Source: a virus. From it: 22,412 bases of DNA. The stretch is from the IMG/VR virus record IMGVR_UViG_3300020183_000501, positions 1-22,412 of that record; one strand, given 5' to 3'. The notes under the pieces were generated by a model. It made no database searches. It saw only the letters and a program-made list of their open reading frames with translations, and was not told the origin of the DNA. A program made the translations under genes and the position numbers. Positions 7,424 to 22,400 of the stretch are shown piece after piece; the stretch's first letter is position 1, and the number at the start of each line of letters is the position of its first letter.

Positions 7424-10400
7424 TTAGTAACCTCCATATCCAGAACCACTGCCCGAACCAGAACCACTGCCCGAACCAGAACCACTGCCCGAACCAGAAC
7501 CACTGCCCGAACCAGAACCACTGCCCGAACCAGAACCACTGTATGTCACTCCGGTGGTGCTGCTTCCGACGGTTGATGTCGTTCCTGAGAACACGACACC
7601 AGTGCTGGTGCTCCGCAGCCTTGATGCGGTTATCGCATCGACTATCTCGATATTGTCCACAGTTGCCGCTGAAACGAATATCTCATTGGCTTGGCTTGTG
7701 ATCTGGAACAGACTACCAAAGCTTTGATCATCGCTGGCGGGCACCATGACCACTGTTGCTATCTCGGTGCTGAGCTCTCTGTGTATGTAGGCAGCAAGTT
7801 CCGAATAGTAAAATGTATCACCGAAATCCCAGTTGTCTATGGCGAAATACTTGTCAATAGCTTTGATCACCCTTGAACGTATTTCATTGTTGCTGAGCCT
7901 GCTGCTCGGTGATTTCACCACTTTGAACGTGGCCTGCAGGGCGGTTTCTGCCCTGCTGCCGAAGAGGGCACGGAACTTGGCGGGATTGAATATTATCGAA
8001 TCACTGACAGATTTGAAATTATTGAGCCTACCATAACTGGTGGTCAGATCGACCACATTAGGCGCCACAGGTTCTTCCAGTGATCCAGTTGTATCAGTAA
8101 GCCATTGCTTGTACGCAGTGTTGTAAGCTCCAGTCAGCACATACATGTCGACGATGTTGGTAGGGCTGGGATCGATCCTGCGATCGCTGGGAGAATTGTG
8201 CTTGTATTGGAACAGCAGCGACGATCTACCAGTCAGTCGCTTGTAGTCACTGCTCTCGACGGCTGTTCTTTCTGAATCCACCAACGTGTTCACGTAAAAC
8301 AAACCTGTGCTGGTAGCATAGAACACCGTGCCTAGGGGATTGCTGAATCGTCCTGATAATTGTATCTCGTTTATGTTGGCATATGCGCTGCTGACATTAG
8401 CTGGATCGAACCATGAATATCGTTCCAAATTATCGTAATCGATGAACTTCTTGAAATATACCTTCTTGGTCAAAGGCGAAGTGTCTTCAGCAACCAAAGT
8501 ATCAAAGATATCTGGATCATCGGGTATTCCATCGTCGTCGCTGTCAGCGAACGTGACCTTGACCAGCGTATCCTCCTTGAATCCATCGGGATATATCACT
8601 GGGCCATAGATCTCCCAAATTATATCATTGGCCAACCTTGCTGTGCTGTCAGGTAGCGTGTTGCTCTTGATCACCTTGATGCTGTCTTTGACAACTTGTC
8701 CTACCCTGGAGTCGAATATTCTGAGGTCAGGATCGATGTAGAATCTAGTGCCTATCCTGGATCCAAAATAGTATAATATCTTCCTGTTGTATACCTGATA
8801 AGTGTTACCATTGTTGATGAAAGCCACAAACCAACTGTTATCAGCGTTGGTGCCAGCTATGCTACCCGCTTCTCCAGTCGTTATGGTCGATAGCAGTTCG
8901 TTGCTGAGATTGCTAGCGGTTATCAGAGTCCATGCTTGGGTAGCTATATCATAGCGGAGACCAAAGTCACTGTTGTTCTGCATCTGCGTCAATATACTTT
9001 GCTCAACAGTTGGACTGATGTAGGTATTGTATGTCACATGCAGATCCACTGCTATCGCGTCTGTGGGTATGTTCTCATTAAGGACCACTGGCCCTAATCC
9101 TGATGCTAACAAGCCTTCTTCTCCGGCGTCACCATCACCTGCAGCCACCACCGATATCAATGTCGCATATATCACAGTGCTTTGTCCCGGCGTTGTGGGA
9201 GAGCCAATCTTGAGGGTCCTATCTATATCGAAATATTTGCCAGCAGGTGCGCTGAATTTTACCAAGCTATTGGGCAGCAAAAAACTTAGGTTTCCTGATC
9301 CAGAGGCGCCTATCTTTTGGGGTGGATAGGTGACATCGCCATCTTCATCCACGACCTTGACAGCGAAGTAACCAGTGCTTGCTCCTGTTTCCGTGGTGGC
9401 TCTATACCAGACTATGTTAGTAAGGGTCTTCTTAGGGAACGTATCATAGAATAGATGCATACTTTCTTTGCTTTTGATGCTAGAAGACAATGTGCCCCTA
9501 ACATACCGCTGTATGTCGCTGAGCGTGTTCCAAGTGAAGCTGGTTATATCTGTTTTGCTTTCTTTATAGATATAGCCATCGTCACCGAAGAAATTGGTGC
9601 TGCTATATTTGCTGGTCGGATCAGTAATATCGAGGTAACGCGACAGACCGCTTGAAGTCCTGTTTACGCTCTTCACCTTAGCTATGTCATTGTACTTTGT
9701 GAACGGTAAAGTGTTATAGTCCTCGCCATTGACCATGCGATCTTGCGTGTAATTAAACTGCGGTGCCCTAGACTTGATGTCAGCAAGGCTTTCCTTGGCC
9801 GATGCATTGCTGACGGTGTATTGCAATCCTACCCTCAATACCAAGTTTTCTATCTTGCCATTGCGCGAAATGTAAGCTATGGATATGGGGATGCTGCGCA
9901 TCTCCTGAGGGGTGATGCTGTAAGTGGCACCCCTGCTCACCCTGACGACAGAACGATAAGAGCCAGTGGGTATCTCGCTGAAGACACCGTCACCGAATAT
10001 GAGATCAATCTGATCATTTGCCCTAGCACTCACCGAATACAAGCTGCGCTGTGCGCTGGCCACGTCATTGTATATCACATTGCTGCTGCGTAGATTATCT
10101 ACTTTGGTCCATTCTTTATCATAGGTTCCGGCATCATTGATCTTGTAAAGCCAAACGTCATCTTCGTTGATATCATTGAGATTGATGCCCACCAATCTGT
10201 TGGCTAGGCTTTCTGAGATACTAAAGTCTAGGTTGGTCATCGTGCCTTGTTTGAAAGCCAAGAAAAAACCAGTGTTGACCGAACTGTTACCTCGTCCATC
10301 GTTGCGATAGATTATGCCAAGCTCGTCCAGGGGCCGAGGACTCTTTTCTTTGACTCCTATGCCGGGATCCAACGTAGCGTTATATACCTCGAACGGCAAG

Positions 10401-11026
10401 CTAACACCATTGACGGTTGCGGTGAAAGGCAGCAGCGGCACTATGTTTTCACGCAGCCTCAGCTGATATAGATCATGCTTGAGATTTCCTATGGTCACCG
10501 ATGATGCAGGCTTGCCTATCCTCTGTCCTGGTTGCAGCGCTGCGTTCAACACCGCTGAGGACTGTTCAGACCAATCTAGGTTTGTAGGATCATCCCATTG
10601 GATGGTGGTGTTGGCTAGGTTCCTTCCGCTGCTATCGCGAACGGTCTCTGATGTTTGCACCGATAATATCTTGAGCAAACCACTGGCTGCCTTGTTCCTG
10701 CTCGGACTATAGCCTAACAGCTTGGCCAACCTATAGATGCTGTCGCGCCGCTCTGCTGTCTCTAGGAAGTTCTCGCGTGCGTTGAGATCTGTGCGGAAAG
10801 CAAGGCTTTGCCCCATGAAGGCCATGAGATCCAACAGCGCCACATATTCGGATGATTCGATATAATCGTTGAAATCCTCGGGATAATAGGTCCTGAGATA
10901 GTCGACCATTGTCTTGCGCAATGTCTCAAAATCATAGCTCTGGAAATCAGCTGAACTGAATGTAGTGTATATCTTCTTCCAATCCTCAGCGGCGAATAAG
11001 TTGCTCTGTCGTGTGGTTACGGCCAT
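7424..11026 (-). CDS. gp6: Baseplate wedge protein gp6, enlarged, with Gly-Ser tail
   Basis: This is the baseplate J/gp6-type wedge subunit, which forms the ring linking wedges around the hub and takes part in sheath contraction. The N-terminus (residues 35-110) has the classic gp6 pattern: a YLRTYYPEDFNDYIESSEYV stretch, then an Ala-Phe-Arg-Thr-Asp-Leu-Asn-Ala-Arg-Glu core and RRDSIYRLAKLLGY. The C-terminal part (about 1015-1130) carries the J-type region with NNEIRSRVIKAI and DNWDFGDTFYYSEL. At 1200 residues it is nearly twice T4 gp6 (about 660). The extra middle sequence includes an acidic DSDDDGIPDDPD loop near residue 827, like thrombospondin type 3 calcium loops. The last roughly 35 residues are Gly-Ser dipeptides ending in YGGY. 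The start has an AGAGG ribosome binding site (11035-11039) and its own late promoter box upstream. Confidence 0.93.
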   Translation of the reverse strand: MAVTTRQSNLFAAEDWKKIYTTFSSADFQSYDFETLRKTMVDYLRTYYPEDFNDYIESSEYVALLDLMAFMGQSLAFRTDLNARENFLETAERRDSIYRLAKLLGYSPSRNKAASGLLKILSVQTSETVRDSSGRNLANTTIQWDDPTNLDWSEQSSAVLNAALQPGQRIGKPASSVTIGNLKHDLYQLRLRENIVPLLPFTATVNGVSLPFEVYNATLDPGIGVKEKSPRPLDELGIIYRNDGRGNSSVNTGFFLAFKQGTMTNLDFSISESLANRLVGINLNDINEDDVWLYKINDAGTYDKEWTKVDNLRSSNVIYNDVASAQRSLYSVSARANDQIDLIFGDGVFSEIPTGSYRSVVRVSRGATYSITPQEMRSIPISIAYISRNGKIENLVLRVGLQYTVSNASAKESLADIKSRAPQFNYTQDRMVNGEDYNTLPFTKYNDIAKVKSVNRTSSGLSRYLDITDPTSKYSSTNFFGDDGYIYKESKTDITSFTWNTLSDIQRYVRGTLSSSIKSKESMHLFYDTFPKKTLTNIVWYRATTETGASTGYFAVKVVDEDGDVTYPPQKIGASGSGNLSFLLPNSLVKFSAPAGKYFDIDRTLKIGSPTTPGQSTVIYATLISVVAAGDGDAGEEGLLASGLGPVVLNENIPTDAIAVDLHVTYNTYISPTVEQSILTQMQNNSDFGLRYDIATQAWTLITASNLSNELLSTITTGEAGSIAGTNADNSWFVAFINNGNTYQVYNRKILYYFGSRIGTRFYIDPDLRIFDSRVGQVVKDSIKVIKSNTLPDSTARLANDIIWEIYGPVIYPDGFKEDTLVKVTFADSDDDGIPDDPDIFDTLVAEDTSPLTKKVYFKKFIDYDNLERYSWFDPANVSSAYANINEIQLSGRFSNPLGTVFYATSTGLFYVNTLVDSERTAVESSDYKRLTGRSSLLFQYKHNSPSDRRIDPSPTNIVDMYVLTGAYNTAYKQWLTDTTGSLEEPVAPNVVDLTTSYGRLNNFKSVSDSIIFNPAKFRALFGSRAETALQATFKVVKSPSSRLSNNEIRSRVIKAIDKYFAIDNWDFGDTFYYSELAAYIHRELSTEIATVVMVPASDDQSFGSLFQITSQANEIFVSAATVDNIEIVDAITASRLRSTSTGVVFSGTTSTVGSSTTGVTYSGSGSGSGSGSGSGSGSGSGSGSGSGSGSGSGSGYGGY
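7442..7541 (-). repeat. Perfect 18-bp tandem repeat coding a Gly-Ser tail
   Basis: On the plus strand the unit agaaccactgcccgaacc begins at 7442, 7460, 7478, 7496 and 7514 as five exact copies, with a 10-base partial sixth copy at 7532-7541. On the coding strand each unit encodes three Gly-Ser pairs. Because the unit is a multiple of three, gain or loss of copies would change the tail length of gp6 without shifting the frame. Confidence 0.97.
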
Positions 11027-11044: not shown

Positions 11045-11052
11045 TATTTATA
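11045..11052 (-). promoter_or_regulatory. T4-type late promoter box upstream of gp6
   Basis: The minus strand reads TATAAATA, an exact match to the T4 late promoter -10 consensus recognised by polymerase carrying gp55. It sits in the 46-base gap between gp25 and gp6, the longest gap inside the structural block. The box ends 18 bases before the gp6 ATG, so the leader would be very short, with the AGAGG ribosome binding site at its 5' end. It could give gp6 and the giant gene extra late transcripts. Confidence 0.72.
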
Positions 11053-11072: not shown

Positions 11073-11447
11073 TTAACCTAGCTTGCCAGCAGTTTTGTCG
11101 AAAACCAAGCGGAGGTTCTCGGTTTCGTTGCTGTTAGAATAGATTAATCTCAGTTCTAATATCAATCCATTGTCGAAGCTGTCAACCATTATGCTCTCGA
11201 CAACCAAGCGTGGATCTGATCTCGCGATCTTTGTTACATCATCGATGATCTGATTCTTCAGCTGCTCTGTGAATGGTTCGAAGATGCTTTCCCATATGAC
11301 TGTTCCAAAATCAGGATTCATCAACTTCTCGCCCCTGCGGATGTTGAAATGATTTATCAGATCTTGCTTGATCAGATCAGCATCGGTCAACCTAACGGTG
11401 TTTTTGATACCAGGATTTTTGGTGCTGAATCCATTGTATAATGCCAT
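11073..11447 (-). CDS. gp25: Baseplate wedge protein gp25 (gpW/gp25 family)
   Basis: This small wedge protein joins gp6 and gp53 at the inner baseplate and nucleates the tail sheath in T4. At 124 residues it is close to T4 gp25 (132). Family features visible are an N-terminal GFSTKNPGIKNTVRLTDADL stretch, the core RRGEKLMNPDFGTVIWESIFEP, and a later Ile-Asp-Asp-Val, then RSDPRLVVESIMV segment; the last is the position of the usual Glu-Pro-Arg motif, here Asp-Pro-Arg. It lies between the lytic transglycosylase (13 bases upstream) and gp6 (46 bases downstream), as expected from the T4 order 25-6. No clear Shine-Dalgarno sequence is seen before its ATG, so translation may depend on the upstream gene. 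The assignment is secure. Confidence 0.93.
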   Translation of the reverse strand: MALYNGFSTKNPGIKNTVRLTDADLIKQDLINHFNIRRGEKLMNPDFGTVIWESIFEPFTEQLKNQIIDDVTKIARSDPRLVVESIMVDSFDNGLILELRLIYSNSNETENLRLVFDKTAGKLG

Positions 11448-11460
11448 GATAAACTATTTA

Positions 11461-12477
11461 TTAGTAACGATAATAGGCATTGATGCTGTCAACCGTGATG
11501 CGTCCGTCCGGGCCCCGCCATCCAGGATTCTGTGCGTAAGCCTTTGTGCCTTGTTTGTAAACTTCAAAGTTACCCGGCTTGTTGGCATATGCAGGAGCTG
11601 CTTGCATGATACCGAGGCGACCACCTTTGTAGTTGTTCTTGCTGAGATATTGATCATAGACAGCCAGCTGTTGGCTTGGTGTCATGTTTTGTATCTGACC
11701 AGTGTTATATCCCAGGCTATTGGCTGTGGAAGGTATGAACTGGAACAGACCAGTCGCACCTGAATCGCGGTTGACAGCCTTGGAATTGAAATTAGACTCA
11801 CCACCTATCACGTTGTATATCTGTTGATCAGTCAGTCCAGGATATTTCCCTTTCATCTCTGATAGCTTCGCTTGGAATTCGGGGTCATTTTTGAGGGCTT
11901 CCGGTGGTACAAACTGCTTGGCTCCTGGCTGGGCACCTTCTCCTATTCCAGACTGTTCGACTGGTTGATCTATACCAGATGAATCACCACTAGGACGTCC
12001 ACAGTTATCACCTTTTGCGAAGCCATCTATGTTGCCGCCACCTGGGCCCGCTGGAATGCTGCTCATAGCATCAGCAGATCCTAGCTGCTCTAAGGCTTGG
12101 CTCGCATCTGGCACCTTGGTTGGTAACATATTGCTGCCCAATGGCGCGCCGGCCAGTGGTCCGCCTTGTATTATGCCAATACCAGACGTTGATCGCACCA
12201 GGTCTTGAAGACCAGCGGTTGGTACACCTGCTAGTGGTCCGCCTGCGATTATGTTAGAATCCGCTACTGCCCTGTCTCTGACCAAAGCTTCAAGTGCTAG
12301 TCTACCTCCGCCAACATTAGAATCCGCTGCTGCCCTGTCTCTGATCAAAGCTCCAAGTGCTAGTCTACCTCGGCCAACACTGGTGCTAGGGTTAGCTGCC
12401 CTAGCACCTGACTTTGCGGTCTCACCTGCACTTGCGTCATAGGGCTTAGCTGTGCCTTTGTTGAAGACGCTGACCAT
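11461..12477 (-). CDS. Baseplate-associated lytic transglycosylase (SLT fold)
   Basis: Residues about 195-338 form a lysozyme-like SLT domain that should cleave the peptidoglycan glycan backbone. The likely catalytic Glu is residue 227 in GGESNFN, followed by the family motif GATGLFQFIPSTA (240-252) and an aromatic-rich C-terminus ending NAYYRY. Residues 1-190 are low in complexity: a 21-residue duplication (about 34-75, GRLALGALIRDRAAADSN type), two GGPLAG motifs (79-84 and 105-110), then a Gly/Pro/Ser linker. No signal peptide is seen, which fits a virion enzyme rather than an endolysin exported by the Sec route. The gene starts 3 bases after the stop of the gp5-like spike, with GGAGAGA upstream as ribosome binding site. 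I infer that it replaces the lysozyme domain found inside T4 gp5. Acting as the endolysin is a less likely alternative. Confidence 0.88.
   Translation of the reverse strand: MVSVFNKGTAKPYDASAGETAKSGARAANPSTSVGRGRLALGALIRDRAAADSNVGGGRLALEALVRDRAVADSNIIAGGPLAGVPTAGLQDLVRSTSGIGIIQGGPLAGAPLGSNMLPTKVPDASQALEQLGSADAMSSIPAGPGGGNIDGFAKGDNCGRPSGDSSGIDQPVEQSGIGEGAQPGAKQFVPPEALKNDPEFQAKLSEMKGKYPGLTDQQIYNVIGGESNFNSKAVNRDSGATGLFQFIPSTANSLGYNTGQIQNMTPSQQLAVYDQYLSKNNYKGGRLGIMQAAPAYANKPGNFEVYKQGTKAYAQNPGWRGPDGRITVDSINAYYRY
12254..12379 (-). repeat. 63-bp direct tandem duplication in the transglycosylase gene
   Basis: Bases 12254-12316 and 12317-12379 are adjacent copies of the same 63-base unit, differing at four positions by eye. 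Each copy encodes 21 residues of the type RLALxALxRDRAxADSN, so the duplication is in frame. It lies in the non-catalytic N-terminal half. Confidence 0.93.
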
Positions 12478-12480
12478 CTA

Positions 12481-13905
12481 TCATCTCTCCCCACCAACGC
12501 TGGTCTTAGGTGTCTGTGCAGCTGCCTTATTGTTAGGATTAGGTCCACCTCCTCCCACGAAATTGCTGGCACGTTCAGCGGCATTGTTTGTTTGTATGGC
12601 AGCGTTCTCAGCCGCTACCTGTTCCTGGCTCATGGGAGGAGCGGATGTTTGCCTATCATAAGGTTCGTGGCTAGGAGCGCGCTTGACCGTGGTATCATAG
12701 CCGCTCACGGTCGATGGTTCTTCGGGCGGCACTTGCTCGGCTTCTTTGGCAGTGCCCGAATTCCAACGGAAGCATTTAGCTTGCGCGATGAGATATCTAA
12801 ATCCTTTGATGAAGATATCGCTGAAACTGGTTATGATGATCTCATTGCAGGAATGCATATGTATGCTGTCAACTCCTTCAATCATGGTCTTGCTGCCATG
12901 TAGCTGAAGCTCCGCGGTGCCTTGTATCTTGGTACCAACACCGGCTATCACCTTGAGGTTATTACCTGCGTGTATGTTGACATCCTTGTTTGCATGTATG
13001 TTGATGTCACCTTCCGATGCCAGGTTGACACCTGCTTGGCCATAGACATCGATGTTACCATCAGGGCTGAGCTCGATCCAACCATTGCCTGCTGCGTTTA
13101 TCACATATACGAAACCAGTATCATCATGCATGGTTATCTGATTGCCGCCCGCGGTCCTGATCCTGATCAGCTTGCTCTTGCCATCCTTGCCTCCATCATC
13201 CATGGCGAAACTATGGCCGATTGGTGTGCTGAATCCCATGACCTTGCAGGGACTCTCCCGGAAGCTGCTGGTGGTGATAAAACCCCTCAACGGATCATCT
13301 TGTAGTCCTTGTGCGGAGAATTTTCCTATCTCATCTTGCAGTGGTTCCCTAGGTACCTGCGTGAGATCTGCTGCGGCCTGCACATCTGGTGAACTGGGAT
13401 CGAACTCGCTCTCAGGTTGTCCTGACGAGCCCGCGCCCAGCGCTGGTATCATACCATGTGCCGTCTCAGGTATTGCTGCGAACCAAAATCCCCGCTGTGC
13501 ATCGCCGTTGGCGAACATAACCAAGACTTTGGTGCCGATAGCTGGTGGTTGTATCCACATACCGAAGCTGCGTGGTGCTTGTGCCCTAGATCTGTTATCA
13601 AGGTATCCAGCAGTCAATGGATTTGATTCGTTACGCCTGAATTCGCCCGCTGTTATCGCACCTGTGATCTGCTTATAAGCAGCGTTGTCTGTCAATCCAT
13701 AGAAAGGACTAGCATATCGCACCGTGTACCAGCTGGTTGGATCCTTGGGATCACCACCGAAATCAGATATCCAAACCGAGACCCTGCCTGCTAGTGTGCT
13801 GTCAGCGTTTTCAACCACCAAACCTTCGTATAGTCCGATGTCTTGCTTGACTCCTGACTTGCCCCCAGCATGTGCTCTACTGGGCACATCAGCAAAATAT
13901 GTCAT
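12481..13905 (-). CDS. gp5: Baseplate hub spike protein, gp5-like without lysozyme domain
   Basis: This is the central spike that pierces the cell envelope. Residues about 18-150 form the gp5/VgrG-type OB fold: an LYEGLVVENADSTLAGRVSV start, a PFYG segment, and FGMWIQPPAIGTKVLVMFAN followed by RGFWFA. Residues about 228-370 are the triple-stranded beta-helix, opening with GHSFAMDDGG and running through short repeats such as GDINIHANKDVNIHAGNNLK. In T4 gp5 (575 residues) a lysozyme domain sits between the two; here that space (about 150-225) is a short linker with no catalytic motif. Residues 385-474 form a Pro/Ala/Asn-rich tail ending SVGGER, unlike a metal-capped spike tip. GAGGG upstream of the ATG is the ribosome binding site. 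The next gene, 3 bases on, supplies a separate glycan-cleaving domain. Confidence 0.92.
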   Translation of the reverse strand: MTYFADVPSRAHAGGKSGVKQDIGLYEGLVVENADSTLAGRVSVWISDFGGDPKDPTSWYTVRYASPFYGLTDNAAYKQITGAITAGEFRRNESNPLTAGYLDNRSRAQAPRSFGMWIQPPAIGTKVLVMFANGDAQRGFWFAAIPETAHGMIPALGAGSSGQPESEFDPSSPDVQAAADLTQVPREPLQDEIGKFSAQGLQDDPLRGFITTSSFRESPCKVMGFSTPIGHSFAMDDGGKDGKSKLIRIRTAGGNQITMHDDTGFVYVINAAGNGWIELSPDGNIDVYGQAGVNLASEGDINIHANKDVNIHAGNNLKVIAGVGTKIQGTAELQLHGSKTMIEGVDSIHMHSCNEIIITSFSDIFIKGFRYLIAQAKCFRWNSGTAKEAEQVPPEEPSTVSGYDTTVKRAPSHEPYDRQTSAPPMSQEQVAAENAAIQTNNAAERASNFVGGGGPNPNNKAAAQTPKTSVGGER

Positions 13906-13930
13906 ATGTCATTTCCCTCAATTTTTGATT

Positions 13931-16918
13931 TCATGGCAGCCTTAAACTACCCCCTGTTCCTCTACCTAAATCCGTAGGATCTGGAAACCCTCTTGATCCC
14001 CGTGTGTCGTCACCGAGTGAAGGATTTCCTAGGGAATTTTTAAGTTTTTCATCTTGTGCCTGTTGGAATTCATTTCGTGCCCTGTCTACTATATTTTCAT
14101 TCCTGCGATTTGCGGCAGCATTAGCGTCTGCTGTGGAGAATCCCGCCCTACCACCACCTGGTTGCCTAAGGGCGGCGTTGGGGTCGCTGGATGCTGTGGA
14201 GAATCCCGCCCTACCACCACCTGGTTGCATCAAATCACGTATTTGCTTGTCTATCTTGTTCTCTACTTGATCGAACACACGAACCATGTTCAGCTTCTGT
14301 GTGAACTTGCCCCCGTCGAAGTTGCTCTCGACCGTGATGACCTGATACACACCACCTATCATGTTCTGTTCCTGCGTGAGCTTCATGAGACCGCTGGCAT
14401 CGTCATAGTCACGTGGTGTGCGGAAATTCAGCTTGATATACACACCATCTACGTCAACGCTGATGCCTTTATTGACATCACCATCCACATAACCATTGTT
14501 GGCAGCATCTATGTCAGTGCCTTTGGGCCTGACGGATCTGTCTTGAGATATGAAGTCAGGATCGCCTATGATGTCCATGTCTAGTTTTACCAAGTCAGCT
14601 AGATCAGGACTGTTGAGTTCTTGATCGAAATATTCCGCGACCGAGTCTGGTTTTGGTCCCCTAGCCTGACCCCTCGTGGTGCTGCCTGTGGTCTGCTTGT
14701 AGATCATCGCGCTCTGCGAGGGATCTTGGCCTGACGTGACAGGATATTGTGATTCAGTTGGCACCTGCGCGCCTGATTCCACCAGCGCCCTCTGGGTCAT
14801 CCTCTTTTCGAACACCTTGAAATACATTAGATTGAAATTGAGATCTAATCCTAGCACATCGTCGTTCTTGCCGGTGAACAGCCAGTTGTATTCCTTGCTG
14901 TGTCCGCGTTGGTTGACCGGTGCTTGCCCTGTCTTGGGGTTGTTCTTACCATAGACGTAATAGGGCATGACCTTGTAGACTATCTTCTTCTGATATACGC
15001 CTCGCTTGCTGTCGAAATTACCTAGGTCCTTGACCACGGGAATTACCTTGATCAGCTCCATGGGATTTGATTTGTCAGCTTGACCATCGGTTATCTTGGA
15101 TTGGAAATACTTGGTGATTATGGCCAGGTCCCTGACCAGATCCTTGATGTTGCTGCCTGCCTTGAGCTGGAAATAAGCAGAGCTTGGATCCAATGCTGTG
15201 GCTGCTTGGACGTCTTCTGCTTGCGCTGCCCTCTGCAGGCTCATCTTCCTCCCTGATATGGGCGTCACAGAGCTGCCGTTATTGACGTCGAAGGTACATT
15301 CGCTCTGCCTCAGCTTGCCATCGTCTGAGGTCCTGTTCTTATCGAAGCTGACGATCTCGAAATCATATTCATCGGGAAATATAGCTTTGCCCTCGCGCAG
15401 CTCAGCTTCGCCTGCTTTCTTGAGCTTGGCCGCCAATCCGTCGGTGCCTTTGAGATAGTCTTCGAAGGTCTTGCCATAGAGCCGGGTGTCTTCCCTGAGC
15501 ACGCCATAGAAATTGTTGATACCTTGCTGGCTGTAGGGCACCATCTTGATGTCATATACCGTGCCAGCTGAAGTTATGTTGAAGGTCATGTTGATTATCT
15601 GGCAGGGTATCAACTTTGGACCTGTGCCTGGTATGCTGGGTATCAATCTGCCGCTGTCATCATAGCCTAGGAACTTTATCTCGATGAGATATGGGATCTG
15701 GAAATGATCATGCGGACCATTGGGAAGGCTATTAGCTATGCGTTTCATGTCTGCTATCAAGCTGACGCCATAGGGCTCCACGACCTGCATCTCGATCTCA
15801 GCGATAGAAGTGTTTGGGCTCATGTTGCTGCTGGCCACCACCGTGGTGAAGCGCAGGTTGTTCAATCCTAGATCATATTCCAAACCACGACCGGTTTTGG
15901 CGAATCCACCTGACCTCATCAGCGGATATCGCCTCAATGATGCAGTATCTTCGCCGCTGTTAGTGAATACATTATATGTGTCTATGTCTAGCATATACCA
16001 ACCAACTTGATAAGTCCAGTTGACATACTCATGCAGCTTGTTAGGACGCAGTATCAAAACCTTGTTGGGCGGAGTACCACCAGAGCCCGCTTCATATTCA
16101 TTGGGAGGACCAGTCCTCCCTTGCTTGCCTACAGTCACTAAACCATTGGATTCTCGCCTGCCGGTGCCTTCCTCATCTATCTTGCCGCCCGCTTCAGTTC
16201 CAGTACCCCCCGTGTTGCCGCTGTCGTCATATTCGCTAGGAGGACCAGAGCGACCAGATGAAGGTGCATTACCATTGGTGGTGACTGGTGTGGTATTAGC
16301 TGACACTTCATATTCGTTGGGTGGTCCTGCCCTGCTGTTACCAGTCGCGTCAGTGGCTCCCGCCGGAGGAGCAGGTCTGGTAGCTTGTCCTCCCAATGAA
16401 GGAGCATCTGTCGCTGCTGAATTAGAACCAGGCGGACCTGAACTTAACGATCTAGCGTAGGGATCAAATGGGTGAGCGCCGGACACGTTTGGTTTAGCAT
16501 CAGGCGGTGCCTGATCGAGGTCTGCGGGATCTGGTCTGGTTTGTGGATAAGCATCATCTGTAGGAGGCACACCGTTGCGCATAACTGATGCTGGCGGAGG
16601 TCTACCTGGTAAAAGTTGGGGCAACTGCGCTGTTGAAAGCACTCCTTGACTTTCGGTGTTGATGCCTAGGTTATCCCGCACCAGCATTCCTTGGTTTTGT
16701 GTAACTCCCACGTAGGGATACTTGCCCAAGATATCTGCTAGCGCGTCCTCCGCTCTTTGCCTGTAAGGTAAGATACCTTCATTGGCTCTCAGCCAAGATT
16801 GCCATTCGGCTTGCGCTGCTTCAAGCTGTTTGACCGCGACCAATTTCTCGCTGGTAGAACTGTTGTCAGTTATAGATGATATATTTCTGTCAACTAAAAA
16901 TTCTGCAATGTCCGCCAT
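13931..16918 (-). CDS. Large baseplate hub structural protein in the gp27 position
   Basis: This 995-residue protein lies directly before the gp5-like spike, where the central hub component (T4 gp27, about 390 residues) would act as adaptor between tube and spike. I see no clear gp27 motif, so the role rests on position and on resemblance to large cyanophage hub/structural proteins. Residues 1-70 look helical. Residues 90-285 are Pro/Gly/Ser/Asn-rich and probably disordered, with three copies of a GPPNEYE motif (198-204, 225-231 as GPPSEYD, 270-276). The folded part begins near 288 (LRPNKLHEYVNWTYQVGWYM) and runs to about 890. The tail has a duplicated QPGGGRAGFSTA motif and a charged helix (NIVDRARNEFQQAQDEK). 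The start lies one base after the gp53 stop, and the gp5-like gene follows after 25 bases. Confidence 0.75.
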   Translation of the reverse strand: MADIAEFLVDRNISSITDNSSTSEKLVAVKQLEAAQAEWQSWLRANEGILPYRQRAEDALADILGKYPYVGVTQNQGMLVRDNLGINTESQGVLSTAQLPQLLPGRPPPASVMRNGVPPTDDAYPQTRPDPADLDQAPPDAKPNVSGAHPFDPYARSLSSGPPGSNSAATDAPSLGGQATRPAPPAGATDATGNSRAGPPNEYEVSANTTPVTTNGNAPSSGRSGPPSEYDDSGNTGGTGTEAGGKIDEEGTGRRESNGLVTVGKQGRTGPPNEYEAGSGGTPPNKVLILRPNKLHEYVNWTYQVGWYMLDIDTYNVFTNSGEDTASLRRYPLMRSGGFAKTGRGLEYDLGLNNLRFTTVVASSNMSPNTSIAEIEMQVVEPYGVSLIADMKRIANSLPNGPHDHFQIPYLIEIKFLGYDDSGRLIPSIPGTGPKLIPCQIINMTFNITSAGTVYDIKMVPYSQQGINNFYGVLREDTRLYGKTFEDYLKGTDGLAAKLKKAGEAELREGKAIFPDEYDFEIVSFDKNRTSDDGKLRQSECTFDVNNGSSVTPISGRKMSLQRAAQAEDVQAATALDPSSAYFQLKAGSNIKDLVRDLAIITKYFQSKITDGQADKSNPMELIKVIPVVKDLGNFDSKRGVYQKKIVYKVMPYYVYGKNNPKTGQAPVNQRGHSKEYNWLFTGKNDDVLGLDLNFNLMYFKVFEKRMTQRALVESGAQVPTESQYPVTSGQDPSQSAMIYKQTTGSTTRGQARGPKPDSVAEYFDQELNSPDLADLVKLDMDIIGDPDFISQDRSVRPKGTDIDAANNGYVDGDVNKGISVDVDGVYIKLNFRTPRDYDDASGLMKLTQEQNMIGGVYQVITVESNFDGGKFTQKLNMVRVFDQVENKIDKQIRDLMQPGGGRAGFSTASSDPNAALRQPGGGRAGFSTADANAAANRRNENIVDRARNEFQQAQDEKLKNSLGNPSLGDDTRGSRGFPDPTDLGRGTGGSLRLP
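14130..14228 (-). repeat. 36-bp direct repeat pair in the hub gene
   Basis: Bases 14130-14165 and 14193-14228 are identical over 36 bases and are spaced 63 bases apart start to start (21 codons). Each encodes the QPGGGRAGFSTA motif near residues 897 and 918. The identity stops abruptly at both ends, as expected for a recent in-frame duplication or a segment kept identical by recombination. Confidence 0.95.
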
Positions 16919-16919
16919 G

Positions 16920-17219
16920 TCATAATCCCAAAGCTTCCTTGATGGTGGCTAGCTTGGGCAAGTATATGGTCCTGCCCTCTTGGAAGTCAAATATGGGATC
17001 TTCTATGCTGTTGGGATTGCGGGCCGCGAAAACCCAAAACAGCGACGCATCGCCGTAGAGATCTGAGGCCAGGATGTCTGGCCTCAGGGCATGCATGCTC
17101 TTTATGGTGTAGAGCGTGTCATCAGGTTGCTTGGGTATGGTCCTAAAATTAAGCGTGTCAAGATAACCATCATAGACTGTGGTCACGAAATAAGGACTGG
17201 TCTGGCTGTAAGTAACCAT
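16920..17219 (-). CDS. gp53: Baseplate wedge protein, gp53-like
   Basis: A 99-residue protein that I assign to the gp53 wedge family, which joins wedges to the hub together with gp25 and gp6. The diagnostic stretch is RPDILASDLYGDASLFWVFA, followed by RNPNSIEDPIFDFQEG and a terminal IYLP. A basic residue, then P-D-x-L-A-x-D-x-Y-G-D, two aromatics and a late YxP is the family pattern, and the tail resembles a LysM-type fold. It is about half the length of T4 gp53 (196), so only the core domain seems to be kept. Its ATG overlaps the stop of the tube-junction gene by one base, and the hub gene begins one base after its own stop, so translation of the three is probably coupled. Confidence 0.85.
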   Translation of the reverse strand: MVTYSQTSPYFVTTVYDGYLDTLNFRTIPKQPDDTLYTIKSMHALRPDILASDLYGDASLFWVFAARNPNSIEDPIFDFQEGRTIYLPKLATIKEALGL

Positions 17220-18313
17220 CAGATGAATCCTCCCCTGCCGCCTTCAGTGCCCAGCAGTTTGCCCGCGGCGAAATCCCTGAGCGAGAAGTCTTTGCTGATG
17301 CTTCTCCTGGAGTAGACTGGTGTGCATGATATTTGGAATTCTTGAATCACAGGCACTTTAGTGGTCCTTGCAACTCCAGCACCGCTGGGACCTGATGCTA
17401 TCGATGTTGTAGATATGTAGTCCACATCCGTCGGCAAAGTAATGGTGAATTCCTTGATTACGATAGGCAAAGAACTGAACTGATAATCGCCGTGGCCATC
17501 TAATCTCAGCACAGGCGGTGGTGTTCCCGCTTCAGGATCCCTACCATAGAACATCTTGGTCACTGAGCGGAAGAAGTGCTGCACCGCTATGACATAGGCG
17601 GCGCTGAACTCATCCTTGGCTGTGAAGGTGCCAGTGATGCTGATGGTAGCCGTGGAAGAATTCTGATAGAACTGATAAGAGTAGTTGCTGTGTGTGGGAC
17701 TTTCTTCAGTGTAATTTGCACTATGAGTCATACTGATGCTGGGCGTGTATGGAAACAACACATAACCCGTGTCTACCAATGGTTTCATTATCTCGTTCTG
17801 AGGATTTATGAACAGGTTACTGGGATCTGATATCCTCACCCTGTCCTCCGATTCGGCACCAGCGAATCTTATCTGATTGTTTTGGCTGGTCAGCTGCCTG
17901 GTAGTAAACATGCCTAGCCCAGCGGCAACCAACCTCGCGGTTTTAGGATCATAGAGCCTAGCGGCTTGTATGCCTAGCTGGCCTAAGCTAGGACTTCTGC
18001 CTGTGGAGTATGCGAAGTCGCTGAACCTGGGATTCCTTGTTCGGCCTATCAGCGCTTGGCTGGCTAGATAGGCCGTGCTGAGCTGCTGTTGCTCGCGTGC
18101 GTTCAACTGCCTAAGGTTGTCACGCTCCAAGTTAGTGAGTATGGCGCCCAGCTGATCATATGTTTGGCGCGTGAATTGTCCTTTGTTGTTGCGATAACTA
18201 ACCGAAGTAGGTATGTCTGATTCGAAACCAACATCAGTGATTTCAGATATGGCAAAACCCATCTGCTTGCTTAATGATTCTAATATCTGTGTCTGACGGG
18301 GAGTATAAGCCAT
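17219..18313 (-). CDS. gp48: Baseplate/tail-tube junction protein, gp48/gp54 type
   Basis: First gene of the structural block. At 364 residues it is the size of T4 gp48, which caps the baseplate centre and starts tube polymerisation together with its paralogue gp54. The most conserved-looking part is residues about 180-260: LFPYTPSISMTHSANYTEES, then a Tyr-rich HSNYSYQFYQNSS segment, ISITGTFTAKDEFSAAYVIA and HFFRSVTKMFYGRD. This reads like the tube-type beta-sandwich and helix shared by tube and tube-initiator proteins. The N-terminal 150 residues are polar and helical. Only one member of the 48/54 pair is present here, so I cannot say which it is; the other may be elsewhere. The start is supported by a late promoter box about 27 bases upstream. 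The ribosome binding site (GGAAAAG) is weak. Confidence 0.82.
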   Translation of the reverse strand: MAYTPRQTQILESLSKQMGFAISEITDVGFESDIPTSVSYRNNKGQFTRQTYDQLGAILTNLERDNLRQLNAREQQQLSTAYLASQALIGRTRNPRFSDFAYSTGRSPSLGQLGIQAARLYDPKTARLVAAGLGMFTTRQLTSQNNQIRFAGAESEDRVRISDPSNLFINPQNEIMKPLVDTGYVLFPYTPSISMTHSANYTEESPTHSNYSYQFYQNSSTATISITGTFTAKDEFSAAYVIAVQHFFRSVTKMFYGRDPEAGTPPPVLRLDGHGDYQFSSLPIVIKEFTITLPTDVDYISTTSIASGPSGAGVARTTKVPVIQEFQISCTPVYSRRSISKDFSLRDFAAGKLLGTEGGRGGFI

Positions 18314-18329
18314 GTCTTTTCCGAGAATA

Positions 18330-18358
18330 TTGTATATCAGTATTTATGGCTGTATAAT
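18330..18358 (+). promoter_or_regulatory. Sigma70-like promoter for the gp55 operon
   Basis: A perfect TATAAT -10 hexamer lies at 18353-18358. TTGTAT at 18330-18335 sits at the ideal 17-base spacing but matches the -35 consensus TTGACA at only three positions. The predicted start is about 18365, giving a leader of less than 20 bases that contains the strong ribosome binding site. This is consistent with host polymerase transcribing the gp55 operon before late genes. Confidence 0.6.
18341..18348 (-). promoter_or_regulatory. Late promoter box for the structural block
   Basis: The minus strand reads CATAAATA, seven of eight bases of the T4 late consensus TATAAATA. It ends 27 bases before the first structural ATG, giving a predicted leader of roughly 20 bases. 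No sigma70-like -35 element is needed at gp55-dependent promoters. The box lies inside the spacer of the opposing promoter for gp55. Confidence 0.68.
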
Positions 18359-18371
18359 CTAACATTATTTT

Positions 18372-18377
18372 GGAGGT
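18372..18377 (+). promoter_or_regulatory. Strong ribosome binding site deciding the TTG start of gp55
   Basis: GGAGGT, a full-strength Shine-Dalgarno core, lies five bases before TTG at 18383-18385. No in-frame ATG occurs until Met97 (RIMTFDH), well inside conserved-looking sequence, so the site fixes the TTG as the start. Confidence 0.85.
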
Positions 18378-18382
18378 GCAAC

Positions 18383-19195
18383 TTGGCCAAGATCAACTAT
18401 CTAAACAACAGGGATCTGTTAAAAGAGATTCACAAGAGCAAGAACAGCTATTGTTCCTACATCTCGCCCGAGGACGGAGCTTATGATCTGATATTGCCTA
18501 ATCTCAGCAAGATAAATCGCAATACCATCGCGGAAGCCAAGCGCGCTAGGGCAGAACGATTGGCCAGGATCGATTGGGAGACTGCGCTTAAGAACAACAG
18601 CAAGGCCAAGCTGGACGAGTTCAAGCGAGATCCGAAAAAGATAGCCAAGACCGACCTAGTGTTCCGCATCATGACCTTCGATCACGTACCGTTGGCACCT
18701 GGACGCAAGAAGTCGCCTAAGAGCAAGGCTGATAATCATGCCAAGGTCAATTTTCCGCCTTTCCAGCATTTCAAGCTGAGGGAAGATGACGTCACGTTCT
18801 GTGTGGGCAAGAGCCATTGGCAAGGAGGTATGGTTAACGGACAATTCAACAAGGACCATGGCAAGATGACCAACGAGCTGGCTAGGATGTTCATGAAGCT
18901 CTGCGAGCGCTATGGCACCCGCGGCAACTGGCGTGGTTATACCTACAACGACGAGATGCGCAGCCAAGCGCTGTTGCAGCTGTCACAGGTCGGTCTGCAG
19001 TTCGACGAGAGCAAGAGCTCGAACCCTTTCGCGTATTACACCGCTACCATAACCAACAGCTTCACACGCATCCTCAACCTCGAAAAGCGCAATCAAAGCA
19101 TGCGGGATGACATATTGGAAATGAATGGCATGACACCCAGTTACACCCGCCAGACTGAATGGGGCACAGGCGGTGGGCGCGGTCCTGACGAATGA
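18383..19195 (+). CDS. gp55: Late-transcription sigma factor, gp55-like
   Basis: A 270-residue sigma-family protein that should direct host polymerase to late promoters. Residues 4-14 (INYLNNRDLLK) match the T4 gp55 start (YNYVNNKELLQ). Residues about 175-235 match its sigma-2-like core: an ERYGTRGNWRGYTYNDEM stretch, then QFDESKSSNPFAYYT and NSFTRILNLEKRNQ, against FNFSGYTQSWKQEM, FDETKYKNPHAYIT and NAFVQRIKKERKE in T4. It is about 85 residues longer than T4 gp55 (185), with an extra basic segment (about 45-140) between the two matching parts. The T4 C-terminal clamp-binding motif (SLDFLYE) is absent; this protein ends WGTGGGRGPDE. It starts at TTG after GGAGGT. Its stop overlaps the next start by four bases. 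Confidence 0.88.
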   Translation: MAKINYLNNRDLLKEIHKSKNSYCSYISPEDGAYDLILPNLSKINRNTIAEAKRARAERLARIDWETALKNNSKAKLDEFKRDPKKIAKTDLVFRIMTFDHVPLAPGRKKSPKSKADNHAKVNFPPFQHFKLREDDVTFCVGKSHWQGGMVNGQFNKDHGKMTNELARMFMKLCERYGTRGNWRGYTYNDEMRSQALLQLSQVGLQFDESKSSNPFAYYTATITNSFTRILNLEKRNQSMRDDILEMNGMTPSYTRQTEWGTGGGRGPDE

Positions 19196-19932
19196 AGCTG
19201 ATCGCGGGCGGGGATAGCTTCGTTTGGGGATCAGAGCTCCGGGATCACAAGCACGGTGGTCCAGGTGGACACAGTCCGTCCACTTATCCCGCGCTGTTGG
19301 CACAGCAGAATGGGCTCGATTATGAATGTGTCGCCATGCCTGGCAGCGGCAACGACAGCATAGCCAGGCGCGTCATCGAAGCATGCTACGATCAAGACGA
19401 TGTCATGGTCTTGGTGTCTTGGACTTGGAGCGCGAGATACGAATTTTGGATCGATAAAAAAAGCCATTGGGAAACAGTATCTAGTGCTCAATACGAGCGC
19501 AAAGCTTTCGCACCCTTTGCTGAACTCAGCAAGGATTTCATACAAACCTATTTCAATGATGTTGGATTCAGCGACTACTGGGAGACATACACCAGCTTGC
19601 GTGAGATCACGAGATTGCAAGATCATCTCACCGCGAGGAGCATACCTTATATGTTCACTATCTGCGATAACTGGTTTGAAAAAGCGGACTGCCTCAGGAA
19701 ACCAGATCCCGTTATCTCATCATTACACTATCATTTGGATAAACGAAGATGGTTCTTCTTCCCAGAAGGTTCCAAATATCCAAAGACCACCACTCCACGC
19801 GGTTTCTATCAATGGGCAGTGGAAGAAGGGTATGAGCAAGGTCCTCAGCTTCATCCATTAGAAGAGGCCCATGTATCCGCTGCCAAACTCATGTCAGATA
19901 GATTCTTGACACTGATCAACGAAAGACCATAA
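19192..19932 (+). CDS. SGNH/GDSL-like hydrolase
   Basis: A 246-residue protein with the landmarks of the SGNH hydrolase fold. There is an N-terminal GDSFVWG block (candidate nucleophile Ser9), a glycine/asparagine block PGSGNDSIARRV (50-61), and a C-terminal HPLEEAH (221-227) placed like the catalytic His block. Family members are esterases, lipases or acyl/acetyl hydrolases; the substrate cannot be read here. No signal peptide or membrane segment is present, so it should act in the cytoplasm. The region 120-210 is rich in Trp, Tyr and Phe. Its start overlaps the gp55 stop (ATGA) and gp47 begins 9 bases after its end, so it is probably expressed with both. Related small proteins of unknown role occur in marine T4-like phages; this is from memory. 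It could modify a surface sugar or be catalytically degenerate. Confidence 0.75.
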   Translation: MKLIAGGDSFVWGSELRDHKHGGPGGHSPSTYPALLAQQNGLDYECVAMPGSGNDSIARRVIEACYDQDDVMVLVSWTWSARYEFWIDKKSHWETVSSAQYERKAFAPFAELSKDFIQTYFNDVGFSDYWETYTSLREITRLQDHLTARSIPYMFTICDNWFEKADCLRKPDPVISSLHYHLDKRRWFFFPEGSKYPKTTTPRGFYQWAVEEGYEQGPQLHPLEEAHVSAAKLMSDRFLTLINERP

Positions 19933-19941
19933 ACTAAGGCA

Positions 19942-20955
19942 ATGGCAAATCCATTCAACAGAGCCCTGCTGTTCACAGACATCCACTTTGGGATGAAGAG
20001 CAACAGCCAGCAACACAACCAAGACTGCATCGATTTCATCGAATGGGCCACTGACCTAGGCAAAGCCAAAGCCTGTGACCGCGTGATATTCGCGGGCGAT
20101 TGGCATCACAATCGCGCCAGCATATCGGTCTATACGCTCACAGCCAGCCTACGTGGCCTGGAGATAATCAGCAGCAAGTTTGACCGCGCTGATTTCATAC
20201 CAGGCAACCATGATCTCTATTACAGGGACAAGAGGACCGTGGCCAGCATCGAATGGGCGCGGCACATACCCAACATACACATACACAATGATACCTATCG
20301 CGAGGGCGACTTCGTGATGATCCCGTGGCTGGTAGGCGATGAATACAAGCATCTGAAGCGACTATCGGCCAAGCATGTCATCGGACACTTCGAGCTACCG
20401 CACTTCAAGATGAACGCCATGGTGGACATGCCAGACCACGGGGAGATACAGGCCGAGGACCTCGGCGGCGTCGAGCATGTCTGGACCGGACACTTCCACA
20501 AGCGACAGCAGCGCGGCAACATCAACTACATAGGCAACGCTTTCCCACACAACTACGCCGACGCTTGGGATGATGAGCGCGGTGCGGTGATATTGTGTTG
20601 GGATGGCACAAGGGAGTATCACGCTTGGCCTGGCGCGCCGCGCTACAGGACCATCAAGCTGAGCCAGCTGCTGGACAGCCCAGACACCCACCTCACACAT
20701 GAGAGCTATCTCAGGGTCAACATCGACATACCGATATCATATGAAGAAGCTAACTTCATCCGCGAGACTTTCGATCAACAATACAAACCGCGCGAGCTAG
20801 CGCTGATACCGCAGAAGCAAGACGAAGCTGTGTTCGACACCGCGGTAGAGATAAAGTTCGAGAGCGTGGATCAGATCGTGCATGGACAGCTGGCTGCGGT
20901 CGAGAGCGAATTCTATGATCCCAAGCTACTATTGCAGATATATGAGAACCTATGA
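19942..20955 (+). CDS. gp47: Recombination endonuclease subunit gp47 (SbcD/Mre11 family)
   Basis: At 337 residues it matches T4 gp47 (339), the metal-dependent nuclease partner of the gp46 SMC-type ATPase. The complex resects DNA ends for recombination-dependent replication and helps degrade host DNA. All calcineurin-type phosphoesterase motifs are visible in order: DIHFG (13-17), GDWHHNR (52-58), GNHD (about 92-95), a middle His in VIGHFE, and GHFH in VWTGHFHKRQ. After the nuclease core, the C-terminal 100 residues resemble the capping and ATPase-binding part. AAGG a few bases upstream of the ATG serves as ribosome binding site. gp46, usually nearby, is not in the window; a radical SAM gene comes next instead, with a four-base overlap. 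Confidence 0.93.
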   Translation: MANPFNRALLFTDIHFGMKSNSQQHNQDCIDFIEWATDLGKAKACDRVIFAGDWHHNRASISVYTLTASLRGLEIISSKFDRADFIPGNHDLYYRDKRTVASIEWARHIPNIHIHNDTYREGDFVMIPWLVGDEYKHLKRLSAKHVIGHFELPHFKMNAMVDMPDHGEIQAEDLGGVEHVWTGHFHKRQQRGNINYIGNAFPHNYADAWDDERGAVILCWDGTREYHAWPGAPRYRTIKLSQLLDSPDTHLTHESYLRVNIDIPISYEEANFIRETFDQQYKPRELALIPQKQDEAVFDTAVEIKFESVDQIVHGQLAAVESEFYDPKLLLQIYENL

Positions 20956-22400
20956 CAAGGATCATCGCCAACGTCGATCTTTCTCAATATTTCACTTTAG
21001 GCAAAGAATGGCTCTATGAAACAGTCAAATCTTTGCATAAAGGAAAATATGATGATGATGAAAGGATACTTTTCTTCTTAGATCAGAATGATAAGAGAAA
21101 ATATTCAAATGAAAAAGGAGAAATCGAATCATGGTTAGACGAATGTCTAACCATGATAGACATCCCGGAATATTTTGTTATCAAAAGATTCACAGCAAAC
21201 ACAGTTGATGGATCTGATGTAAATCGAGATAAAGCGATCTGTGTGTTACCGTGGATTCACTTATATGTGAATCCAGAAGGCGATCTAGCTCCTTGTTGCA
21301 TAGGTAAACCTATATTAGGCAACATAAAGGATTATCCAACCGTCGATGAAGCTATTAACTCTATCGAATACAAAAATCTAAGATCAAACATGCTTTCAGG
21401 TAAAAAGCATTCTGCGTGTTCTAAATGTTATGAAAATGAAGATAGTGGACGAGGCAGTGGACGATTGATTGCTAACAATCAATGGGTTAGATATCTAGAC
21501 AACGTTAGAAGCGTAGATTTACATGATTTTGCACTTAGATTCTACGACATCAGGCTTTCAAATATTTGTAACTTCAAGTGCAGGACTTGTAGTGGCACAT
21601 TCAGTTCAAGCATAGCCCTAGAAGATGAACAGTTAGGTCACCTGAGAACTAACTCACAATCAGAGATGATACACAAAACTTTTATTAAATCTGTGATGGA
21701 TCACATACAAGACCTAGAAGAAATCTATTTTGCTGGTGGTGAACCTCTTATTATGGAAGAAAACTATCAGATATTAGATTTATTGATACAAAAAAACAAA
21801 TGTGATATACCAATCTATTATAATACCAATTTCAGCAATCTAAAGTATAAGAAAGTTTTGATAACAGAAATTTGGAAAAAATTCAGAAATATAACCCTTG
21901 GTCTCAGTTTAGATGCTATGGGAACAAGAGCTGAATATCTTCGTAAAGGCACAAAGTGGAATCGAATTTTAGATAATATAAAGATCGTCAAAAGAGAATG
22001 TCCTAATGTTAGGCTTACTATCGCCTCAACCTGGAGCATCTATAATTCTCTCCATCTCCCTGATTTCCATTCATGGTTGATTAAAAATGATATAGTAGAT
22101 CCTAACGATATCACACTCCATGCTGCAAATGGAGATCTACACGATTTGCTTTTATTACCTGATCATTTGAAAAACAAAGCTAAAGAAAATGCTATGAACA
22201 TGATCAATGATATCAGATCACATCCATGTTCAGATAAGTTCATAGAGTCATGGCAAAAGAACATCGACTATCTAACAAGCGGTGATAAATCCTACCTTTT
22301 GGATAGATTTATCATCAGGACACAACAACTAGATCAAATCCGTAAAGAAGATTTTTTAACAGCTTTTCCAGAGTTGCAACAACTATTTTTACCAAGATGA
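20952..22400 (+). CDS. Radical SAM protein with N-terminal SPASM/twitch-like cysteine domain
   Basis: A 482-residue enzyme. The radical SAM signature Cx3Cx2C is at Cys206, Cys210 and Cys213 (ICNFKCRTC), followed by the GGEP motif (262-265) that contacts the S-adenosylmethionine amino group. A second cysteine set lies before it: Cys97 (ICVLPW), Cys115-Cys116 (LAPCC) and Cys156/Cys159 (ACSKCYE), the pattern of SPASM/twitch auxiliary iron-sulfur domains, which usually come after the radical SAM barrel. Residues 1-80 are charged and unfamiliar. Such enzymes often modify peptides or small molecules, but no precursor peptide is visible here. The start overlaps the gp47 stop by four bases and lacks a strong ribosome binding site. 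Composition changes sharply at this junction: 20 of 60 G+C at 21001-21060 against 35 of 60 at 20401-20460. The substrate is unknown. Confidence 0.87.
   Translation: MTRIIANVDLSQYFTLGKEWLYETVKSLHKGKYDDDERILFFLDQNDKRKYSNEKGEIESWLDECLTMIDIPEYFVIKRFTANTVDGSDVNRDKAICVLPWIHLYVNPEGDLAPCCIGKPILGNIKDYPTVDEAINSIEYKNLRSNMLSGKKHSACSKCYENEDSGRGSGRLIANNQWVRYLDNVRSVDLHDFALRFYDIRLSNICNFKCRTCSGTFSSSIALEDEQLGHLRTNSQSEMIHKTFIKSVMDHIQDLEEIYFAGGEPLIMEENYQILDLLIQKNKCDIPIYYNTNFSNLKYKKVLITEIWKKFRNITLGLSLDAMGTRAEYLRKGTKWNRILDNIKIVKRECPNVRLTIASTWSIYNSLHLPDFHSWLIKNDIVDPNDITLHAANGDLHDLLLLPDHLKNKAKENAMNMINDIRSHPCSDKFIESWQKNIDYLTSGDKSYLLDRFIIRTQQLDQIRKEDFLTAFPELQQLFLPR
21131..21154. repeat. Perfect inverted repeat, 10-bp stem
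   Basis: ATGGTTAGAC (21131-21140) and GTCTAACCAT (21145-21154) pair perfectly across a four-base loop (gaat), inside the 5' part of the radical SAM gene. No T-run follows, so it is not a typical terminator. Confidence 0.9.
21253..21274. repeat. Perfect inverted repeat, 8-bp stem
   Basis: GGATTCAC (21253-21260) pairs perfectly with GTGAATCC (21267-21274) across a six-base loop. It lies at the codons around Trp101 of the radical SAM protein, just after Cys97. Confidence 0.88.
21464..21483. repeat. Perfect inverted repeat, 8-bp stem
   Basis: ATTGATTG (21464-21471) pairs perfectly with CAATCAAT (21476-21483) across a four-base loop (ctaa), inside the radical SAM gene. Confidence 0.88.
22283..22314. 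repeat. Inverted repeat, 9-bp stem with long loop
   Basis: TGATAAATC (22283-22291) pairs with GATTTATCA (22306-22314) across 14 bases, near the 3' end of the radical SAM gene. No poly-T tract follows directly, so a terminator role is not supported. Confidence 0.7.

Follow-up and report, generated by a model that had tools for sequence, protein, structure and literature searches.

Late transcription in bacteriophage T4 is carried out with gp55, gp33 and gp45 at TATAAATA promoters (PMC2988020), and gene 55 is itself transcribed from the promoters Pe40.4 and Pm55 (PMC6024815). The genes shown beside gene 55 in T4 are all on one strand, and in cyanophages S-PM2 and P-SSM2 and in Rhizobium phage RHph_I1_18 gp55 lies in line with uvsW. 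Early and late promoters sharing one control region are known from phage phi29, where in the A2b/A2c-A3 region protein p4 activates the late promoter and represses the early ones (PMC3100819). For the giant phages CBB and GAP32, ATAAATA was predicted as the late motif, with 35 sites in CBB, and the gp55-like gene was noted to have a separate class of promoter immediately before it (Porf_244); we found there no mention of an opposite-strand late box abutting that promoter, and no proposal of a switch (PMC5259590).

Here we focus on a 22.4-kb virus record (22,412 nucleotides, analysed over its full length and called the window below), whose best named relatives are the giant phages PA5oct, Phosso, Atu_ph07, Vibrio 2.275.O, RaK2, GAP32 and others. 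As in T4, a gp55 homologue is present and late boxes of the TATAAATA type stand before structural genes (PMC2988020). Unlike T4 gene 55, the gp55 gene of the window is divergent from a late operon. An earlier note on this DNA had proposed that the promoters of the two overlap, so that gp55 would switch on the operon facing it and shut off its own gene, and had added that T4 is not arranged in this way; the neighbours of gene 55 and its known promoters bear out the latter (PMC6024815). The divergent overlapping arrangement is absent from T4 and the cyanophages. The logic resembles that of phi29, in which early and late genes also occupy opposite strands and share a single control region for their promoters (PMC3100819). 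The differences are that phi29 uses a DNA-binding regulator, p4, together with p6, and host sigma-A polymerase at both promoters, whereas here the proposed repressor would be the late polymerase, directed by the very sigma factor whose gene is repressed; neither an operator nor a regulator apart from it was found. An overlapping early/late promoter switch is of a known kind, and a late holoenzyme acting as repressor of its own sigma gene would be a new variation on it. No prior description of the arrangement was found in the open-access full texts searched.

The divergent junction in the window

The two transcription units are separated by an intergenic region of 69 nt (18314-18382, 32% GC), bounded by the ATG of a minus-strand structural ORF at 18313 and by the TTG start of gp55 at 18383 on the plus strand. 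The gp55 gene (18383-19195, plus strand) encodes a late-transcription sigma factor of 270 aa and is preceded by GGAGG (18372-18376, plus strand). The assignment made in the earlier note is supported by matches to PHROG_12791 (5.9e-82) and PHROG_234 (8e-24), by a sigma-2 region and by the match of residues 156-237 to the T4 gp55 chain of PDB 7d7c_F (E 6.6e-5); a search of the window gp55 against Pfam gave no match. Downstream on the same strand (19192-22400) are a protein of 246 aa with unknown function, a gp47/SbcD-like nuclease (19942-20955) and a radical SAM/SPASM protein (20952-22400), and in PA5oct, GAP32 and RaK2 the genes downstream of gp55 are gp47 and gp46. The gp55 promoter also drives gp47 and other genes, which makes any switch at this site one of an operon boundary rather than a loop on gp55 only.

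The late operon on the minus strand opens with a virion structural protein of 364 aa (17219-18313; PHROG_12050, 2.9e-43) and continues leftward through 11461-17219 with a baseplate wedge gene (16920-17219), a structural protein, a hub/tail lysozyme and a hub protein with a transglycosylase-like domain. It is followed on the same strand by a gp25-like gene (11073-11447) and by a large gene (7424-11026) that corresponds by synteny to the relatives' gp6-like baseplate wedge gene.

In gp55 of the window and of 70 relatives, about 130 residues more than in T4 gp55 separate the sigma-2 region from an N-terminal NYLNNRDLL motif. A hydrophobic/acidic clamp-binding tail is not obvious by eye at the C-terminus of the window gp55 or in the variable C-termini of the relatives. 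The sliding-clamp domain PF09116 was found in T4 and S-PM2 and not in 8 records of this lineage, a search in which a divergent clamp could be missed. Late transcription in the lineage may not be clamp-driven.

Since the gene upstream runs antisense to gp55, a promoter for gp55 has to lie within the gap or close to it. On the plus strand, a -35-like TTGTAT (18330-18335, 3/6 consensus) is followed after 17 nt by a perfect TATAAT (18353-18358, 6/6), with a predicted start at about 18365; the -35-like element, the -10, a spacer within the 16-18 nt range and their conservation mark this as a sigma70-type promoter. On the minus strand, the T4-type late box CATAAATA (plus-strand letters TATTTATG; 18341-18348) matches the consensus at 7/8 positions and sits between the -35-like element and the -10 of gp55; from the T4 positions -13 to -6, its start is predicted at about 18335. 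The leaders would then be about 18 nt on the gp55 side and about 22 nt on the late side. All three elements lie exactly where the earlier note had placed them.

Taken by itself, the window gives weak to modest evidence. A sigma70 scan returned 14 promoter-like sites against 13.7 in shuffles, and late boxes with one mismatch are at chance level (17 against 18.5); neither scan was counted as support. When the 69-mer is shuffled with its dinucleotides preserved, the sigma70 score is reached in 4.3% of cases, TATTTAT appears in 9.4% and TATAAT in 17%, and the sigma70 score and the late box occur jointly in 0.4%. In its DNA fold the gap does not stand out (z 0.33). It is the placement of strict ATAAATA together with conservation that lifts the pairing above chance, and with the comparative data the pairing is strong.

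ATAAATA as a late promoter motif

Strict ATAAATA occurs three times in the window, always on the minus strand and always just before the start of a structural ORF (18313, 11447 and 11026). In addition to the box in the gap, a second late box, AATAAATA (11455-11462, minus strand), precedes the gp25-like gene, and a third, a perfect TATAAATA (11045-11052, minus strand), precedes the large gene at 7424-11026. All three (3/3) thus combine a TATAAATA-like sequence with a site just upstream of a structural gene, as expected of T4-type late promoters. Since shuffles of the window yield 1.3 copies on the plus strand and 2.0 on the minus strand, it is the position and strand of the copies that are informative and not their number.

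The relatives carry this further. In five large contigs, ATAAATA lies 12-80 nt before a start on the same strand in 25/32, 12/24, 12/14, 15/20 and 11/15 cases, while at most 19% of the copies of permuted words are so placed in the same contigs. The word is also scarce, with 32 copies in an example contig of 210 kb, where four permuted words have 93-156. When every 7-mer was scanned without bias in three more contigs, ATAAATA came out as the most start-enriched (13/18, log10 p -17.8). What had been read as a late box from a single window is therefore a member of a genuine motif class. Two other candidates fared differently. The one-base variant CTAAATA was unsupported as the general late motif of the lineage that carries it before gp55, since away from this site such contigs use ATAAATA, and TGTGCTATTAT was rejected as a genome-wide class of middle promoters, being near-unique to gp55.

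Promoter geometries in related loci

We collected 301 related loci, some of them fetched twice, which reduce to 132 non-redundant loci at <90% gp55 identity. These loci share descent and the sampling favoured close relatives, so that the counts below are not counts of independent events. In nearly all related loci gp55 is divergent from its upstream ORF. This ORF is structural in PA5oct, GAP32, XaC1 and RaK2, carries no annotated name in SCTP-2 and Vibrio 2.275, and is annotated as an adenylyl- or cytidyltransferase in Phosso and Atu_ph07; in Vibrio 2.275 and Atu_ph07 structural genes come next. Among 70 loci at <85% gp55 identity, [AC]TAAATA was found within 175 nt upstream of gp55 on the minus strand in 67 and on the plus strand in 8, with 9.5 expected from shuffles.

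To describe the layouts, a distance d is counted from the first T of TATTTA to that of the -10. The geometry classes were drawn from aligned sequences and fixed patterns and were set post hoc, with the data already seen; a generic sigma70 score was unused for this purpose, as it chose wrong -10 sites in lineages with a weak -35. The late box overlaps or abuts the gp55 promoter in 98 of the 132 loci, in five geometries. It lies in the spacer, as in the window, in 19 loci (d 10-13, with 16 at 13 and the window at 12); at the -35 position, with an extended -10, in 14 (d 23); abutting the TTG of the -35 or sharing a base with it in 35 (d 29-30); at the gp55 start point in 22 (d -12 to -14); and just upstream of the -35 region in 8 (d 33-35, the spacing of GAP32, CBB and RaK2). 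In a further 21 loci, comprising the PA5oct lineage and a few others, the boxes are separated (d 57-102, mostly 65); for PA5oct itself the spacing is about 52 bp. The remaining 13/132 are unclassified; judged by eye, several of these carry TATTTAC as a variant of the box or have their start wrongly set.

Within each of the five geometries the spacing between the two elements varies by no more than about 1 bp, and it is most rigid in four of them (sd of d 0.0-0.7), as against sd 1.3-9.3 for the distances from the elements to the start codons. An alignment of 16 relatives that share the geometry of the window shows TATTTAT without variation and TATAAT with almost none. The TTG of the -35 shifts by no more than one base, and the outer flanks are unconserved. 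The early-type promoter claimed for gp55 likewise recurs, a TTG and a TATAAT-type hexamer being found in 19/19 non-redundant loci of the same geometry, features which partly define that class. In one geometry the late box is the off-consensus CTAAATA (26 loci), and promoters of this type may be weak.

The earlier note had staked its reading on the conservation of both boxes and of their overlap in related phages. The first part holds and the second holds for most loci: both boxes are kept throughout the five geometries, whereas in the PA5oct lineage they persist without overlap, mostly 65 bp apart, and on this ground the overlap is lineage-specific. The gaps of the PA5oct lineage (e.g. L098, L103, L109) contain conserved ATAAAC, TTTTTAT and GAAA between the separated promoters, at a near-constant 65-bp spacing, perhaps as the site of another factor. 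In a PA5oct sub-lineage (L119, L120, L122-L124) a plus-strand ATAAATA stands 84-98 nt before gp55, and in L001 one stands 62 nt before it. This suggests that gp55 is also transcribed late in these phages, where the box would possibly give positive and not negative feedback.

A pairing of a similar kind is seen in XacN1 (L159:4803-4916) and RAS14 (L195:3740-3880), in which the neighbour that points away from gp55, here a short one, is the portal block and not the tail block. The structural genes are preceded by ATAAATA and gp55 by TTGACA-17-TAGGAT or TATCAT, the two being about 54 bp apart in XacN1.

A proposed handover and its alternatives

Our preferred reading, to which we give a probability of about 0.55, is that the junction is a composite of two mutually exclusive promoters that hand transcription over from early to late genes and feed back negatively on gp55 and the genes downstream of it. 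The gap would form the boundary between an early/middle operon (gp55, gp47 and others) and the late tail operon. Early in infection, host sigma70 polymerase at TTGTAT-17-TATAAT would make gp55 and cover the late box meanwhile. As gp55 builds up, polymerase carrying it would open the late box in the spacer and start the tail operon leftwards, and from that site it would occlude the gp55 promoter. The late open complex melts -12 to +2 (PMC7892883). Placed on the window, this bubble falls in and beside the spacer of the gp55 promoter, and either polymerase should for this reason exclude the other. Steric mutual exclusion is a sound expectation from this bubble and ordinary polymerase footprints, while the negative feedback on gp55 that would follow is plausible. 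With footprints of about -40 to +20, the two polymerases would clash up to a d of about 62, by which the five overlapping geometries should exclude and the PA5oct type should roughly abut.

A wider form of this reading would hold that, in a lineage of giant phages related to T4, the late holoenzyme occludes its own sigma gene through an opposite-facing late promoter, with the same logic arrived at in at least five geometries and similar pairing recurring in XacN1 and RAS14. This we put forward tentatively, at somewhat under even odds. Should the overlap act in the way proposed, a minimal homeostatic circuit with no extra regulator would be present in many giant phages: a promoter served by the sigma factor would switch off the gene that encodes it. 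The spacing series (-13, 12-13, 23, 29-30, 33-35 and 52-102 bp) amounts to a natural test of promoter interference that includes lineages without overlap.

The architecture alone is no proof of feedback, since overlapping divergent pairs of two late promoters also exist. Face-to-face late boxes 17-32 bp apart are found at G001:108348-108373, G002:31449-31472, G003:7293-7321, G004:6262-6290 and G006:92232-92270, and in G001-G004 this junction lies between an ORF of ~280-300 aa and a large ORF (about 630-1200 aa). As these pairs overlap in the same genomes, compact divergent promoters are evidently tolerated without a switch. It is thus a real possibility, though one we would not bet on, that both promoters at the gp55 junction are functional and overlap simply from the shortness of the gap, with gp55 shut off by a general takeover of polymerase and the overlap having little regulatory effect. 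The similar closeness of the late-late pairs speaks for this, as do the survival of lineages with separate promoters and three geometries with a gap of ~60-91 nt, too short for separate promoters by minimum start distances. Against it, two lineages with gaps of ~110-154 nt, as long as those of many PA5oct-lineage loci, still overlap or abut at a fixed spacing (-13 and 34) and have a longer gp55 leader.

The exclusion could also run in the reverse direction, with sigma70 polymerase silencing the late promoter until the host sigma is displaced, which would make the overlap a timer for the tail operon and not a feedback on gp55. Some lineages do have a perfect TTGACA-17-TATAAT beside the weaker late box CTAAATA. 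In the window, however, the late box matches at 7/8 beside an early promoter of no more than moderate quality (3/6 at -35), and an additional timer looks redundant since T4 late promoters already require late factors. We consider this improbable. A chance origin, in which either box or both arose simply because boxes and gap alike are rich in A and T, would fit the weak statistics of the single window, and is made very unlikely by conservation and fixed spacing over the 132 non-redundant loci.

Apart from the promoters, the L006-L029 group and others have a long conserved leader of about 100 nt before gp55 with repeated TAGGC (e.g. L010:5903-6000). It contains an invariant AACAGACCTGTTTGTGGTCA, a GACC-TGTTTGT-GGTC hairpin with 4 invariant pairs, for which neither an Rfam match nor covariation was found. 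This leader is possibly an operator or a structured RNA controlling gp55.
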